Shown piece by piece: positions 1-22,476 of a stretch of DNA of 24,868 nucleotides. Origin of the DNA: a virus; IMG/VR virus record IMGVR_UViG_3300030329_000158, positions 1 through 24,868 of that record; one strand, given 5' to 3'. The notes beneath the pieces are model-generated. The model was given only the letters and a program-made list of their open reading frames with translations, did no database searches and was not told where the DNA came from. A program made the translations under genes and the position numbers. Each line of letters starts with the position of its first letter. Positions within the stretch are counted from its first letter, which is position 1.

Positions 1-9
1 CAATCTAAT

Positions 10-63
10 GGGGTGGGCAGCTGGAGCTAGCAGTTAAATAACTATAAACAGCTAACCCACCCC
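10..63 (+). repeat. Long-armed inverted repeat (hairpin 1)
   Basis: GGGGTGGG at 10-17 is perfectly complementary to CCCACCCC at 56-63. After a small internal loop (C opposite AA) the stem continues with AGCT (19-22) against AGCT (50-53). The loop holds a second small inverted repeat, AGTTA/TAACT, around 32-43. The 3' arm directly abuts the 15-bp box at 65-79, and there is no T-tract, so it is not a normal intrinsic terminator. It could be a structured transcript start, a processing site or part of an origin. Confidence 0.75.
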
Positions 64-64
64 G

Positions 65-79
65 ACAATTATAATAGGG
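65..79 (+). promoter_or_regulatory. Repeated 15-bp box, copy 1 (candidate phage RNAP promoter)
   Basis: ACAATTATAATAGGG occurs here and again, identically, at 150-164. The form, an AT-rich stretch ending TATAATA followed by GGG, resembles the initiation end of T7-type promoters (CTATAGGG). It lies just upstream of the phage RNA polymerase operon. The assignment to the phage polymerase is inference. The TATAAT inside it could also act as a host -10, although I see no -35 at the right distance. Confidence 0.5.
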
Positions 80-110
80 TTTTCAAGTAGAAGTATGGTA
101 CCGTAAGACT

Positions 111-119
111 TGATATAAT
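111..119 (+). promoter_or_regulatory. Extended -10 element, candidate host promoter for the RNAP operon
   Basis: TGATATAAT is a perfect extended -10 (TG-N-TATAAT). No good -35 is visible 16-18 bp upstream, which extended -10 promoters can tolerate. In T7-like phages the RNA polymerase gene must be transcribed by the host enzyme first, so a host promoter here makes biological sense. Transcription would start near 126. Confidence 0.45.
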
Positions 120-149
120 CAGACCTCTAAACTTCAGGTTCTGTTCCCT

Positions 150-164
150 ACAATTATAATAGGG
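150..164 (+). promoter_or_regulatory. Repeated 15-bp box, copy 2 (candidate phage RNAP promoter)
   Basis: Exact copy of the box at 65-79. Here the GGG extends to six Gs, which form the 5' arm of the hairpin at 162-236. If this is a phage promoter, the transcript would begin with a G-run that folds at once. A third, degenerate copy (ATAATTATAGG, 238-248) abuts the far arm of that hairpin, but its AGGAG doubles as the ribosome site of the gene at 256, so I do not count it as a promoter. Confidence 0.5.
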
Positions 165-236
165 GGGACTACGATGTGGTGCCTACCAGAGCCCTCAAGA
201 ACTCGACACAGAGTTGATGTAAGCGTTAGTCCCCCC
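162..236 (+). repeat. Long-armed inverted repeat (hairpin 2)
   Basis: GGGGGGACT (162-170) pairs perfectly with AGTCCCCCC (228-236). The stem continues with ACG (171-173) against CGT (224-226), leaving a single bulged T at 227. The 50-nt interior contains a second stem, AACTC (200-204) with GAGTT (211-215). No T-tract follows. The arms begin inside box copy 2 and end just before the AT-rich sequence upstream of the first gene. Confidence 0.8.
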
Positions 237-255
237 GATAATTATAGGAGATGTT

Positions 256-531
256 ATGTCTGATGATCATAAGTTAGGTACTTGGGACACCGAAAAGAAC
301 TGGCGTAGAATGAAAGAAGATCAACGAGCTATCCGAGAAGGTAAGAAAAAATATGTACCTAAGCTTTACAAGGACACACCTCAAGGTGGTAGTGGTGCTG
401 GTAAAGGCGATCAGTATCGTGCTGTAGATAAAGAAAGGTATGATTTGAATTATGATTTAGCCTTTGGAAAAATTACTAAAGAAGAACATGCAAAAAGGAT
501 GGCTGAACTAGATGACAACTCAATGGAATAA
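256..531 (+). CDS. Small conserved phage protein with GKGD...NYD...FGK motif
   Basis: This 91-residue, highly charged protein is soluble, with no membrane segment. Its ATG has an AGGAG five bases upstream. Residues about 49-72 carry the pattern GKGD-xx-R-x-VDKE-x-Y-xx-NYD-xxx-FGK. From memory this recurs in many small tailed-phage proteins of unknown function, so it is probably a real conserved family. It is the first gene of the RNA polymerase operon, and its end overlaps the RNAP start by 20 bases, which suggests translational coupling. In T7 this position holds early host-takeover genes, but nothing in the sequence shows that role. Function unknown. Confidence 0.8.
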   Translation: MSDDHKLGTWDTEKNWRRMKEDQRAIREGKKKYVPKLYKDTPQGGSGAGKGDQYRAVDKERYDLNYDLAFGKITKEEHAKRMAELDDNSME

Positions 532-2956
532 TTTAACCAAGAGTCAACAGAACGAAAGAGATTCATGGCAACGTGTTCTTGAAGAAGATATGCTAATGAC
601 TTCTTGTTCTAGATACTGGAAAGATTATGGACGTGCTCCTGATGAAGGCATACCTGAACAACAACTACTAGATGCTGTTGTTGATACACTATCACCTTGT
701 TATCAAGAGTGGATAGATAAAGTATGTGCTAATCCTAAGACACCGCAGTGGGTACATCCACTAGTAGCTGTAGGTGCAAGGAAGATGGCTGACCTAACTA
801 TAAGATGTTTACTTAAGGTATGGTTAACACCTAATATATTCGGTTATAAATTTGCTGAACAACACAGCCCACCTACTGCCCAGATATTATCTAACTTAAT
901 ATCGCAAGAGGTTATTAATATTGTGGGGTTTCAAAATGCAAAAGAAGAGTATAAAGAAGACTGGCGAATGCAATCTAAGTTCATAAAGAACTGGACTCCT
1001 AAGAGATGTATTGCTTTCGCTAAGAAAATGGATGCTATTCCTAAGATGACACTAAAGCAAAGACAAGACTTTGGTCATCACATGATTAGGATAGCAGAAG
1101 AAAGTAATGTTATAGTTTCACAGAGGCATAGACGAAAGACAAAGCGTGGCTATAGAAATTACTTATACATAGAGTTGGCACCTGAGATATTAAAAGATCT
1201 ACACGAGCAACACTACTTATTAGAAATGTCTACATTATTATATAGACCTATGGTAGTACCGCCTATTGATCATACATTATCAGCATCAGGTGGTCACTTA
1301 ACTCCTCATATAAGAAAGCCTGTTGTGCAGAAGTATAGATCTAATCTATATGAAGATGAAAAACTAGAACAGAAATCATCTGAACCATCACAGTTAGTAC
1401 TTGATGGTGTCAATGCTTTACAAAAAACTGAATGGACTATTAATGATAGAGTTCATGAAGTTATGAAGAATCTATTTGAGAACAATACAGGTATAGCTAA
1501 CCTACCTTGCTGTAACTTTGAAGAGTTTATGTTTAATGATGAGTATCCAACTGATGGTACTAAACAAGAGCAAGCTGTATGGTGCCAACACCGTGAGGAA
1601 ACTTGGGGTAATTGGTACAAAGAAGAACAGGCTAGAGGTAGGATGTTTGTACGACTCAAACTAATAGAGCGTATTAAGAGGTGGGGCTTCTTTTATATGC
1701 CCTACACTTTAGACTTTAGAGGTAGAGCTTATTCTGTATGTGAGTTACTATCACCACAAAGTTCTGATATAGACCGTGGTCTTATTATGTTTGCTAATTC
1801 AATGGAGCAAACTGAAGAAGGACTATACTGGCAGAAGATATACCTAGCCAATCTATTTGGTATGGATAAGCTACCATTCGATGACAGAATTGAATGGGTA
1901 GATAAACATTGGGACATCTTTGAAAGTATTAATAACGATCCTTACTCTGAACATTTCTGGGTTGACTCTGCTGTTAAAAAGAATAAATCTTTTCAACGAT
2001 TAGCTGTTATCTTTGATATGTTTAGAACAGATGGATTAACACAAGTACCTGTGCATGTGGATGGTAAGTGTAATGGCTCACAACATTGGGCTGCACTTAT
2101 GAGAGATGAGATTATTGGTACATTAACTAATGTATTACCATCAGACGAACCACAAGATCTTTATCAGTATGTAGCTGATAAAACTACAGAGTATTGTAAG
2201 TTTCATCTTGATGAGAATGAATACTATGAACAGTTTATGGATCATTGGGATGATGGAATAGATCGTTCGGTAACTAAACGATCTACCATGTGTGATTCAT
2301 ATGGCTTGACATTCTATGGTATACAAAAATATACTAGGACAGAAGGTCATGTTGACTGGATCCCTAAAGAAAAGCGAGGAGGTGCTGTTGTTGAGTTAGC
2401 ACGTGCGATACAAGCAGGACTTAACACATCACTTGAATCGCCTAACACAGGCAAGGCTTACTTAAAAGAGTTAGCTAGTATTGCTTGTGATAATAATAAA
2501 CAACTTACTTGGTGGACACCATCAGGCTTTAAGGTTGTACATGTATATAATAAGACAGGTTCAAGAAGATCATTAGCAAAACTATTTAATAATAAAGAGT
2601 TGCAATTCTTCTTTAGAACTAAGGACGTAGATGAGAGGGCTGTTAAGCAAGCTATCTCCCCTAACTATATACATTCGTTGGATGCTGCACATATGTTTCT
2701 TACTATCTTTGCATTTATTCTTGATGGGTTTAAGGATATGTCAATGATACATGATTCATTTGGTTGTCATGCTCCATTAATAGGTAAGCTTAATAAACAT
2801 ATACGTGAGGAGTTTTGTAAAATGCATTCCAAAAATTTGCTAGAAAATTTTAGAGCAGACATTAAAACATTAACTGGTACAGAATTGCCAGAAGTTCCAG
2901 AGACTGGTGATCTGGATATTAACGACGTACTTATTTCTTTATTCTTTTTCTCATGA
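512..2956 (+). CDS. T7-type single-subunit DNA-directed RNA polymerase
   Basis: This 814-residue enzyme (T7 RNAP has 883) would transcribe the middle and late phage genes from phage promoters. Conserved elements in order are PMVVPP near 246, the DFRGR motif near 401, catalytic Asp517 (VHVDGKCNGSQH), KRSTMCDSYG with Lys589 and Tyr597 (equivalent to T7 Lys631/Tyr639), SPNYIHSLD near 716, and the second metal Asp748 in MIHDSFG. The C-terminus ends in FFFS, comparable to the FAFA foot of T7. The promoter-recognition loop region (about 675-705) differs from T7, so the promoter will differ too. It starts inside the preceding gene and ends in an ATGA overlap with the next. It is intact with all catalytic residues present. 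Confidence 0.98.
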   Translation: MTTQWNNLTKSQQNERDSWQRVLEEDMLMTSCSRYWKDYGRAPDEGIPEQQLLDAVVDTLSPCYQEWIDKVCANPKTPQWVHPLVAVGARKMADLTIRCLLKVWLTPNIFGYKFAEQHSPPTAQILSNLISQEVINIVGFQNAKEEYKEDWRMQSKFIKNWTPKRCIAFAKKMDAIPKMTLKQRQDFGHHMIRIAEESNVIVSQRHRRKTKRGYRNYLYIELAPEILKDLHEQHYLLEMSTLLYRPMVVPPIDHTLSASGGHLTPHIRKPVVQKYRSNLYEDEKLEQKSSEPSQLVLDGVNALQKTEWTINDRVHEVMKNLFENNTGIANLPCCNFEEFMFNDEYPTDGTKQEQAVWCQHREETWGNWYKEEQARGRMFVRLKLIERIKRWGFFYMPYTLDFRGRAYSVCELLSPQSSDIDRGLIMFANSMEQTEEGLYWQKIYLANLFGMDKLPFDDRIEWVDKHWDIFESINNDPYSEHFWVDSAVKKNKSFQRLAVIFDMFRTDGLTQVPVHVDGKCNGSQHWAALMRDEIIGTLTNVLPSDEPQDLYQYVADKTTEYCKFHLDENEYYEQFMDHWDDGIDRSVTKRSTMCDSYGLTFYGIQKYTRTEGHVDWIPKEKRGGAVVELARAIQAGLNTSLESPNTGKAYLKELASIACDNNKQLTWWTPSGFKVVHVYNKTGSRRSLAKLFNNKELQFFFRTKDVDERAVKQAISPNYIHSLDAAHMFLTIFAFILDGFKDMSMIHDSFGCHAPLIGKLNKHIREEFCKMHSKNLLENFRADIKTLTGTELPEVPETGDLDINDVLISLFFFS

Positions 2957-5015: not shown

Positions 5016-5065
5016 TAGACTATGATGATGGAATGACTATTATAGATGATGGAGATGGCGATTGA
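5003..5065 (+). CDS. Putative 20-residue acidic micro-ORF
   Basis: MEIVIDYDDGMTIIDDGDGD is read from an ATG with a clean AGGAG seven bases upstream (4991-4995). It overlaps the end of the resolvase gene, and its stop overlaps the next start (TGATG). Eight of its 20 residues are acidic. It may be a real microprotein, or it may mainly deliver ribosomes to the next gene (coupling leader). The strong SD and the tidy overlaps at both ends favour translation; function unknown. Confidence 0.5.
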   Translation: MEIVIDYDDGMTIIDDGDGD

Positions 5066-5331
5066 TGCAGTTAGTAGAGATAGTTTGGAAGGATATCATA
5101 AGACCCGAAGAGACGTGGTTGTTTAAAGATGATGTTATTAAACTACGACCTGCAGTCATAACAACCGTTGGATGGATAGTAGACGAGAGAGCAGAGTCTC
5201 TTACGGTTGCTAGTTCAATGGGTGATGATCAACAGTTAGGAGATATTAATTGTATACCTAGGTCTGTGATCATAACAATAAAGAATTTAGGAGATACACA
5301 TGAAGAAGATGTTAACATACCTATTCTTTAG
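5065..5331 (+). CDS. Hypothetical protein, 88 aa
   Basis: The ATG overlaps the micro-ORF stop (TGATG), and GGAG at 5051-5054 is well spaced. A TTG one codon earlier is possible but less likely. The protein is soluble and beta-like: MQLVEIVWKDI at the start, then RPAVITTVGWIVDE, SLTVASSMGDD and IPRSVIITIKNL. The pattern suggests a small all-beta fold. No catalytic motif is recognised. Its last 32 bases overlap the lipoprotein gene, which starts inside it. Confidence 0.75.
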   Translation: MQLVEIVWKDIIRPEETWLFKDDVIKLRPAVITTVGWIVDERAESLTVASSMGDDQQLGDINCIPRSVIITIKNLGDTHEEDVNIPIL

Positions 5332-5695
5332 TTTCTTATTACTAGGTTGTGCTAGTACACCTAAGTGGTACGAGTCACCTATGTCACCATCGGCTATGAC
5401 TACCGAGGCTATTAGTAGTCCTGTTAGTACATGTAGTCCGATGCTTGGATGGCTTGGTGGAATCTGTACACTTAGTGGTATGGCTTTACTAGTAATAACG
5501 GGCGGAAGAATGGGATGGAAGCCAGTCATTGGTGGAATTATTTTTATCGTAATCAACTATGCATTAGCAAGGTATGCTAGTTGGATATTCCTACCTGTAG
5601 TTATAGCAACTGCTGCTATATCCCTAGCTTGGGCAGGTAAAATTGTATGGAAGATTGTCAATGATGACGATATCAAATTAAAGGAGATGTTTTAA
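5300..5695 (+). CDS. Predicted phage lipoprotein with membrane helices
   Basis: This 131-residue protein opens with a type II signal peptide: MKK, a hydrophobic core (TYLFFSFLLL) and the lipobox LLGC with Cys17 as the lipidated residue. After a Ser/Pro/Thr-rich linker come three hydrophobic stretches at about 48-67, 75-90 and 95-117, then a charged tail. It should sit in the host envelope. AGGAG precedes the ATG at 5300, inside the preceding gene. It could act in lysis (though outer spanins lack extra helices) or in superinfection exclusion; neither is shown. It is unusual in a replication operon. The TAATG overlap couples it to the next small membrane gene. Confidence 0.8.
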   Translation: MKKMLTYLFFSFLLLGCASTPKWYESPMSPSAMTTEAISSPVSTCSPMLGWLGGICTLSGMALLVITGGRMGWKPVIGGIIFIVINYALARYASWIFLPVVIATAAISLAWAGKIVWKIVNDDDIKLKEMF

Positions 5696-19680: not shown

Positions 19681-19917
19681 ATGTCACCACAAGATCCATG
19701 GGAAACACACAACGGAGGTACTAACGGCTGGGCAGAATATAAACGACTAGTAATTAATGAGCTTGAGCGAGCTAATCACAGGCTAGATATGATGGATAAA
19801 CGGTTAGGCAGAATGGAAAAACATATTACAATATTGCAAACTAAAGCAGCTGCTTGGGCAGCAGGGTTAGCAATAACAATTTCTGGAGGGATGACCCTCC
19901 TCTTCAAATTCTTTTGA
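19681..19917 (+). CDS. Coiled-coil plus membrane-anchor protein, holin-like
   Basis: In this 78-residue protein, residues 19-52 form an amphipathic helix (EYKRLVINELERANHRLDMMDKRLGRMEKHI) with coiled-coil spacing. Residues 54-78 form a C-terminal membrane segment (AAAWAAGLAITISGGMTLLFKFF). The layout matches XhlA/holin-type phage proteins from Gram-negative and Gram-positive phages. It might be a holin or membrane anchor; no endolysin is recognised nearby, so the role is open. AAGGAG precedes the ATG. A GC hairpin lies in its last codons. Confidence 0.65.
   Translation: MSPQDPWETHNGGTNGWAEYKRLVINELERANHRLDMMDKRLGRMEKHITILQTKAAAWAAGLAITISGGMTLLFKFF
19885..19900 (+). other. Perfect GC hairpin at the end of the holin-like gene
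   Basis: GGAGGG (19885-19890), loop ATGA, CCCTCC (19895-19900), then a T-rich but broken tail (TCTTCAAATTCTTTT). It lies inside the coding region just before the scaffold gene. It could be a weak terminator or a processing site that separates scaffold mRNA from the upstream cassette. Confidence 0.45.
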
Positions 19918-21105: not shown

Positions 21106-22395
21106 ATGACAGCAGTCGGTAATTTAGCAGCCAGTCATCTCCCATATAGAGGAGATCTAACTGGACAGCCAAGTTCAGCCAACCCGTATTGGAATGGCTC
21201 TTCCTGGACATCAGCAGCAGCTGCCCAGGGTAAAATGTGGATCCCGATTTGGTCGGGTGAAGTTATTCACGCTTACGATGAATACAATTCGTTCGAACCT
21301 CTAGTAACTAGCAAAACTATTGCTAGTGGTACGACAGCAGAATTCCCAGTCACTGGTACTGTAGACTTGAATCCCGCATGGGAAGCAGGTGAAGAACTAG
21401 TGGGTGGTGCAGAAAGTAAGGCAACAACATTCAAGATTACCTTGGATAAACGCCCTATGGCTGCTCACTTCGAAACTGATAACATCGATATGATGCTTAC
21501 TCAGTGGGAATACCGTTCGGAACTAGCACGTCAAGCAGGTATGACTCTTGCTAACACTAAGGATAAGCAGATCTTTTCAACATTGGTTCGCGCAGCAACT
21601 GCTAGCCAACTTAATGGTGATACTGAAATCCGTGGTGACTTTGGTTTAGAGTCTTTGTTCTATGACGGTGGTGCTTTGAGTACACCAGTTTCTGGTGAAA
21701 GGCGATTGCTTCACTTGGGTGGATCAATCGTAGATGGCATCACTTCTACTCAGGTAGAAATGAACGAAGCTGCTTTGGCTGTTCTAGAATCCATTGAAAA
21801 GTTTATCGTTCACCTTCAAGAGAATGATATTCCTGACCGTGGACTTATGTGTGCCGTGTCACCAAAGGCTTTCATGGATATTCGTGCACTCGGTGTTGCT
21901 CGTGATGACGCAGACTTTGATGGTGGTGGTCGACGACCATACTTCGCAGGTGCTGCCGAAATGGGTGGTCTAGGTGCAGGTCTTGGACAAAGCTTTGGTG
22001 CTATTAATGATAGTTTGAACTACATGGGTTGTACTATCATTAAATCCAACCACGTACTACGTACGAATCAAACCACAGCAACTATGGGTGATTCGAAATA
22101 TGCTTTAGACTTTGGCGATGGTCGAGTTAAAGGTGTAATTTGGATTCCAGACGCTGTTGCAAGCATTAAATTGCAAGGTTTGAAAGTAGATCATGTACAG
22201 GACATTCGACGTAATACACACTTCACAGTTGCATCCATGATGGGTGGAGCTGGTGTACTACGACCAGAATGTTGTGCACTTCTTACGGGTCTTGACAGTA
22301 CTGATAGTTCATCAGATACTCGTACAGATCTCCGTAATGCTACGCACTTGAACTACACTGAAGCTGAATATGTCAGTGATGGTGTAGCTGCATAA
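21106..22395 (+). CDS. Major capsid protein, T7 gp10-like (HK97 fold)
   Basis: This 429-residue protein forms the icosahedral shell. The stretch WSGEVIHAYDEYNSFEPLVTSKTIASG...EFPVTGTVDLNPAWEAGEEL (about 50-100) and the following TFKITLDKRPMAAHFETDNIDMMLTQWEYRSELARQAG resemble the T7/cyanopodovirus capsid N-arm and spine-helix region. It is longer than T7 gp10A (345), with extra Gly-rich sequence near 285-300. AAGGAG lies upstream of the ATG at the end of the structured leader. The gene is followed by a terminator, as in T7. The codon choice looks a little more GC-rich than its neighbours by eye, consistent with high expression. No sign of a T7-type 10A/10B frameshift was seen. Confidence 0.95.
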   Translation: MTAVGNLAASHLPYRGDLTGQPSSANPYWNGSSWTSAAAAQGKMWIPIWSGEVIHAYDEYNSFEPLVTSKTIASGTTAEFPVTGTVDLNPAWEAGEELVGGAESKATTFKITLDKRPMAAHFETDNIDMMLTQWEYRSELARQAGMTLANTKDKQIFSTLVRAATASQLNGDTEIRGDFGLESLFYDGGALSTPVSGERRLLHLGGSIVDGITSTQVEMNEAALAVLESIEKFIVHLQENDIPDRGLMCAVSPKAFMDIRALGVARDDADFDGGGRRPYFAGAAEMGGLGAGLGQSFGAINDSLNYMGCTIIKSNHVLRTNQTTATMGDSKYALDFGDGRVKGVIWIPDAVASIKLQGLKVDHVQDIRRNTHFTVASMMGGAGVLRPECCALLTGLDSTDSSSDTRTDLRNATHLNYTEAEYVSDGVAA

Positions 22396-22416
22396 CTATA
22401 GTTTTATAATATAGTT
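22394..22416 (+). other. AT-rich inverted repeat after the capsid stop
   Basis: AACTATA (22394-22400) and TATAGTT (22410-22416) are perfectly complementary around a 9-nt loop. The repeat overlaps the capsid stop codon by two bases and lies ten bases before the intrinsic terminator. It may protect the 3' end or act as a processing site. Confidence 0.45.
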
Positions 22417-22425
22417 ATATACACG

Positions 22426-22461
22426 GACCCTCTGCCTCTCCGGGGCAGGGGGTCTTTTTTT
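22426..22461 (+). terminator. Intrinsic terminator after the capsid gene
   Basis: GACCCTCTGCC (22426-22436) pairs over all 11 positions (one G-T) with GGCAGGGGGTC (22444-22454) around a 7-nt loop, followed directly by seven Ts (22455-22461). It is the equivalent of T7 T-phi, which also follows the capsid gene and lets some transcription through to the tail genes. Confidence 0.95.
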
Positions 22462-22463
22462 AT

Positions 22464-22476
22464 TAAGGAGGTGATC
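22464..22476 (+). promoter_or_regulatory. Unusually long Shine-Dalgarno of the tail tube A gene
   Basis: TAAGGAGGTGATC is complementary over 13 bases to the 3' end of E. coli-type 16S rRNA (GGATCACCTCCTTA). It fixes the start at the ATG at 22477, five bases after AGGAGG, rather than the GTG at 22471, which is part of the site itself. It may compensate for reduced mRNA behind the terminator. Confidence 0.85.

Follow-up and report, generated by a model that had tools for sequence, protein, structure and literature searches.

What kind of element is a row of hairpins and AT-rich boxes standing directly ahead of a phage RNA polymerase operon? The question is raised by the left 255 bases, all non-coding, of a 24.9-kb IMG/VR virus record, the whole of which (24,868 nucleotides) was analyzed and is called the window here. 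These bases hold three closed stem-loops (10-63, 76-149 and 162-236) with a near-identical AT-rich box between them, which bears out a preliminary description of the left end as repeating units of a linker and a closed structured RNA. The features are as follows, where z compares folding with dinucleotide shuffles, L numbers are arrays of related phages and group A comprises the phages with a T7-type RNA polymerase (RNAP):

1..9, + strand: linker CAATCTAAT, a copy of the canonical ACAATCTAAT truncated where the contig ends (from the sequence and comparison with L016, L006 and L005).
10..63, + strand: module M1, a stem-loop with an 8-bp closure; z -3.6; also in L005, L006, L016, L014/L018 and L037, with a U.G wobble in L014.
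64..76, + strand: linker GACAATTATAATA, of the repeat family.
76..149, + strand: module M2, with a weak 4-bp closure and possible loop-loop pairing of 90-94 with 131-135; z +0.2.
149..161, + strand: linker TACAATTATAATA, of the repeat family.
162..236, + strand: module M3, a stem-loop closed by 10 perfect bp; z -3.65.
237..250, + strand: last linker GATAATTATAGGAG, fused with the following ORF's ribosome-binding site (from the sequence; same layout in L005, L006 and L016).
256..531, + strand: 91-aa ORF after the array, with recognisable homologues in group A relatives and no Pfam or PHROG match.
512..2956, + strand: T7-type RNAP gene, the second gene past the array (PHROG 414, E 1e-158).

The box repeat reads CCCGACAATTATAATAGGG at 61-79 and CCCTACAATTATAATAGGG at 146-164, with shorter kin, CCCGATAATTATAGGAGAT, at 234-252; this third box also serves the ORF at 256 as ribosome-binding region (AGGAG, 246-250). 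The hairpin arms had been described as perfect, which held for M1 (10-17 with 56-63, 8 bp) and M3 (162-171 with 227-236, 10 bp), whereas M2 is closed by 4 bp only (76-79 with 146-149). The z-scores place M1 and M3 above chance and M2, as a nested fold, not. The candidate loop-loop pairing in M2, GAAGU (90-94) with ACUUC (131-135), was recognized by eye and is of a type that the folding program cannot score. The opening CAATCTAATGGGG, first taken for a degenerate earlier unit, turned out to be the canonical linker, of which the contig end has cut off the first base (L016, for comparison, has ACAATTTAATGGGGTGGGCAGC). The window starts just within an array, the end of which is formed by bases 1-250, and relatives carry the core hairpin or additional modules to the left of this linker position, as the idea of a leftward continuation of the units had it. 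No terminator-like site was found in window positions 1-600, in agreement with the earlier view that the hairpins are not ordinary terminators. In the window, the gap that separates the capsid gene from the ORF after it (22395-22471) holds a classic intrinsic terminator, GGACCCTCTGCCTCTCCGGGGCAGGGGGTCTTTTTTT, an example of a real terminator in this phage. Other genes in the window encode a gp2.5-like protein, a primase/helicase, DNA polymerase A, a ribonucleotide reductase, the portal and the capsid.

Close relatives (94% and 84% identity) were retrieved with the DNA polymerase as query, and scans for M1, the core hairpin and other modules brought the array-bearing contigs in IMG/VR to a total of about 20, from which 15 distinct arrays were extracted for comparison. 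The arrays are 0.3-0.8 kb of non-coding DNA with a common layout: the 5' part is variable, then come a core hairpin and a string of modules with ACAATYTAAT-type linkers between them, and the 3' end varies. The core hairpin reads GAGTGATNGGCGTAACCNATC or CGAGTGATNGGCGTAACCNATC and is followed by KACAATCTA (ACAATACA in L010); there is usually one copy per genome, with two in L029 and L036, and one of its base pairs varies between G-C, A-U and G-U. This 22-nt hairpin, plus the linker, is all that is shared by every array, while modules vary greatly in content, order and number, are about 54-147 nt long and differ widely in fold. M1 was found again in five other distinct arrays. For M2 and M3 no relative was found among the arrays compared, and the three-unit array of the window comes from one record only; in the close relatives L005 and L006 the ribosome-binding linker follows directly after M1, with M2 and M3 missing as whole units. 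L006 also has ~600 non-coding bases after a DUF932 gene, holding additional modules that are built alike. Recovery of several arrays (L009/L010, L014/L018, L028/L032/L037 and L030/L033/L034) from two or more contigs and metagenomes argues against assembly artefacts.

Three further observations were made on the contigs. One 20.3-kb contig (IMGVR_UViG_3300008220_000110, L034/L035) has the same array at both ends in opposite orientation, an inverted duplication that may be real or an artefact of assembly. In IMGVR_UViG_2878536677_000001 (L043, 4933-4953, - strand) a core-like hairpin, GAGTGATTGGCGTAACCAATC, and after it a perfect stem-loop lie between a DUF2815-like SSB gene (assigned by eye) and a polymerase-like gene. 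This match has no linker array and its relatives gave no support; if genuine, it would extend the pairs seen in the core by a U-A type, and it may be due to chance. Finally, the motif AAGCAGGATNAA occurs in two otherwise differing modules, M5 and M21, in the upstream array part (L027, L029, L031 and L036), possibly as a shared loop or receptor motif.

The arrays are found in two groups of phages. Group A has RNAPs 53-86% identical to that of the window. Group B has a PolA-type polymerase, a PD-(D/E)XK exonuclease and a Sak4-like protein, and no RNAP gene was detected in the group B contigs examined, which are incomplete; the array of L038, a group B member, lies in another gene neighbourhood. 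Nearly all DNA similarity between the two groups falls in the arrays, and the few small ORFs that match do so at about 34-56% protein identity. Three small ORFs of the window without known function (5062-5331, 5300-5695 and 19681-19917) are among the few proteins common to both groups, at 36-56% identity. Eight modules (M1, M5, M8, M9, M10, M15, M16 and M17) are common to A and B and stand in different order; in M16, 32 bases are identical between arrays of the two groups. Matches between arrays are on the same strand in 198 cases and on the opposite strand in one. M1 is 97% identical between the window and L005/L006, compared with about 79% for coding DNA. Single events are also visible: M14 lies between two ACAATCTA linkers in L006 and is missing from L005, L029 and L036 hold M4 or M6 in one slot, and M17 is a free-standing unit between linkers in L016 and is nested within a clamp stem in L042. 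Taken together, these comparisons give good support to the view that whole modules have been gained, lost and swapped as cassettes between otherwise unrelated phages.

The same comparisons bear on the earlier proposal that every box is a phage RNAP promoter from which transcription of a short structured RNA begins at the G run. Two of the three window boxes read TATAATA-GGG, like the end of a single-subunit polymerase promoter. However, the 24.9 kb contain no further exact copy of the box, near matches are not above chance, and a dispersed-promoter search of the window gave only ribosome-binding-site-like matches. The linker family is moreover present in the group B contigs, in which (incomplete as they are) such a polymerase was not detected, and in relatives the linker is often followed by a base other than G, many modules beginning, e.g., with GTTACC, GACACC or AATACT. 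We consider promoter boxes of this kind highly improbable. As a separate candidate, the box as a general phage promoter repeated before several genes was ruled out by its absence elsewhere in the window.

The array could also serve the genes that follow it. As a cis-acting leader or 3' UTR, its stacked stem-loops would protect the mRNA, insulate genes or set the translation of the RNAP operon, and the identity of the modules would hardly matter. This is one of the two main rivals to the explanation given below, and it fits with arrays that run straight into a ribosome-binding site, as in the window, L005, L006, L016 and L041. However, the 3' end is a sigma-70 promoter in L010, L030 and L037 (none is present there in the window, L005, L006 or L016), which means that the polymerase operon can be transcribed without the array; and in group B other genes follow, past a terminator-like stem, then T runs, in L014 and L027. 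In addition, loops are conserved as much as stems, as in the bases of M16 that are identical across the groups, and mere insulation needs no such conservation, which leaves a leader function quite unlikely. The promoter, at 1959-1986 in L010, is a perfect TTGACA-16-TATAAT, placed in all three phages between the array and the RNAP operon.

To look at the form in which the array acts, alignments of 12 module families with 2-7 sequences per module were analyzed for covariation. The arms were found to covary, a check that had been proposed for related genomes. Predicted pair cells were 98% canonical and 23 pairs had double compensatory changes, against 38-46% canonical and 0-2 such pairs when partners were slid by 1-3 columns; since these alignments also supplied the structures, the canonical-pair measure is favoured more than the double-change measure. 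Closing helices contained 33 G.U and 5 A.C pairs under a helix rule that treats the two alike, in a count that includes one mis-sliced row (the second clamp of L042) and homologous rows that are not independent; with each wobble event counted once, by eye, the numbers were roughly 19 and 4. M14 has no closing helix under this rule. Compensatory changes and an excess of G.U far above A.C indicate that the functional form is most likely the + strand RNA. Canonical linkers were predicted to be 75% unpaired, vs. 52% for other AT-rich 8-mers. The folding energy of whole arrays was no more extreme than that of several coding controls and was not used as evidence. In M4 an H-type pseudoknot is possible (GUCUC-CCAAG-GGGAC-CUUGG), in which one G.U is replaced by A-U in L038, as judged by eye from the alignment. 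A mosaic architecture of structured RNA is, in our judgement, very probable.

The pairing statistics also weigh on a function in DNA, either as a replication origin, which had been proposed for this region, or as single-strand recombination hairpins like integron attC sites. AT-rich boxes next to GC-rich hairpins, the nearby polymerase gene and the cassette-like movement of the modules are compatible with such an element. On the other hand, G.U is tolerated and A.C is not, the strand is fixed relative to the genes, and a tyrosine integrase (PF00589) was found in none of 12 contigs searched, most of them incomplete. For an origin no direct evidence was obtained, and the locus lies in differing gene neighbourhoods in different phages. 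A DNA element is very unlikely on these grounds.

The second main rival is itself an RNA: a single large particle similar to GOLLD or ROOL, in which the modules would be peripheral domains and the linkers hinges, and which would assemble via tertiary or intermolecular contacts. A particle is in line with the size of the arrays (0.5-0.8 kb), with their constant core hairpin, mostly present once per genome, with modules able to form pseudoknots and with an M1 loop that stays palindromic (GCTAGC in the window, GTGCAC in L037). In this loop, GCUAGC in the RNA, all four inner bases are changed in L037 to give GUGCAC; the change is suggestive of a homodimer kissing loop, though with only two variants known. 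Against a particle speaks that only the 22-nt core is common and contents vary greatly, whereas the fold of an obligate particle would have to be conserved, and that Rfam searches at gathering and relaxed thresholds gave nothing relevant, including no GOLLD or ROOL covariance-model match. We regard a single particle as unlikely.

The best explanation as a whole, to which we assign a probability of about 0.6, is a transcribed mosaic RNA of exchangeable self-folding modules, possibly an accessory RNA island that acts on the host; the figure is a compromise between the firmer architecture and the more doubtful host role. Bases 1-250 would be the 3' end of this non-coding RNA, which in this phage would lead the RNAP operon. 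As read from the sequences, the fixed core hairpin comes first and each module after it is sealed by a helix of its own, between ACAATYTAAT-type linkers predicted to be mostly unpaired; a module so closed folds by itself and can be moved without disturbing its neighbours. Shared linkers and similar closing stems (GGGGNGTAGT) provide the short homology for exchange, which would take place at linkers or helix bases and between unrelated phages that probably share hosts. The array would be transcribed, and modules may then be cut free in the linkers or act along one transcript. Processing of the array by RNase III, one of the earlier suggestions, is possible; for cleavage of linkers by RNase E, the consensus presumably fits only the T variant of the linker, and this was left out of the evidence. 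The modules might bind host factors, e.g. nucleases or defence components. We liken their role to that of phage counter-defence islands because content turns over fast at a fixed position with constraint inside the modules, and by this analogy a host-directed role of the modules is put forward tentatively, as the likeliest among the roles considered. Equally speculative is the wider idea of phage RNA accessory islands, made of a core hairpin and a mosaic of self-folding, often pseudoknotted RNA effectors, swapped between unrelated phages that share hosts, in which the modules would each counter a host factor or hijack it. That such an island could be the RNA counterpart of anti-defence gene islands is likewise an analogy we hold with some doubt.

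Accessory content of phages is usually catalogued as proteins, and here a non-coding array behaves like a protein accessory island, with a position fixed within a lineage, variable content, cassette exchange across phages and strong constraint on each module. Should the modules act on host factors, they would provide a new class of counter-defence based on RNA, with compact natural folds available by the dozen. A structural role would still leave the swapping of whole domains at linkers as an unusual form of RNA evolution, visible between close phage relatives. A DNA search of cultured phages and plasmids gave no match at the sensitivities used, exact patterns of the core and M16 were not found in bacterial and archaeal genomes, and no system of modular or mosaic phage RNA arrays was described in the open-access literature searched. 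On the strength of these negative results, which extend to open-access papers and present-day libraries, an architecture in which closed RNA modules are exchanged around a constant core and a common linker appears to be new.

Several known systems are similar in part. The T7 early region, with its promoters, RNase III sites and primary origin, also has hairpins and lies near the phage RNAP gene, whereas the array is common to phages without a detected polymerase, undergoes cassette exchange and has no other box copies in the window. Integron attC cassettes are likewise palindromic elements with short conserved boxes and cassette-like gain and loss; in contrast, the cassettes of the array are without genes, no integrase was found and the pairing statistics point to RNA. 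Phage tRNA arrays are strings of closed RNA units with a content that varies between phages, although ARAGORN detected no tRNA in the window. The type III toxin-antitoxin RNAs ToxI and CptI (PMC8860590, PMC4627078) consist of tandem structured units with short spacers on one transcript and offer a precedent for an array that is cut into units. ToxI units, however, repeat one RNA, whereas those of the array differ in length and fold, and the genes after the window array are the 91-aa ORF without a match and then the RNAP. Similar in scale are GOLLD and ROOL, large non-coding structured RNAs of phages and prophages, sub-kilobase, with pseudoknots and a function that is unknown; GOLLD also has one conserved and one less conserved part (PMC12286853). 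These RNAs are defined by an RNA-only multimeric cage. The arrays described here lack a sequence or covariance-model match and were seen with no tRNA island. If the array forms one particle, it would be better classed as a variant of these large ornate phage RNAs; as it appears from our comparison, its common part is a 22-nt hairpin with a linker and the remainder is a string of exchangeable closed modules.
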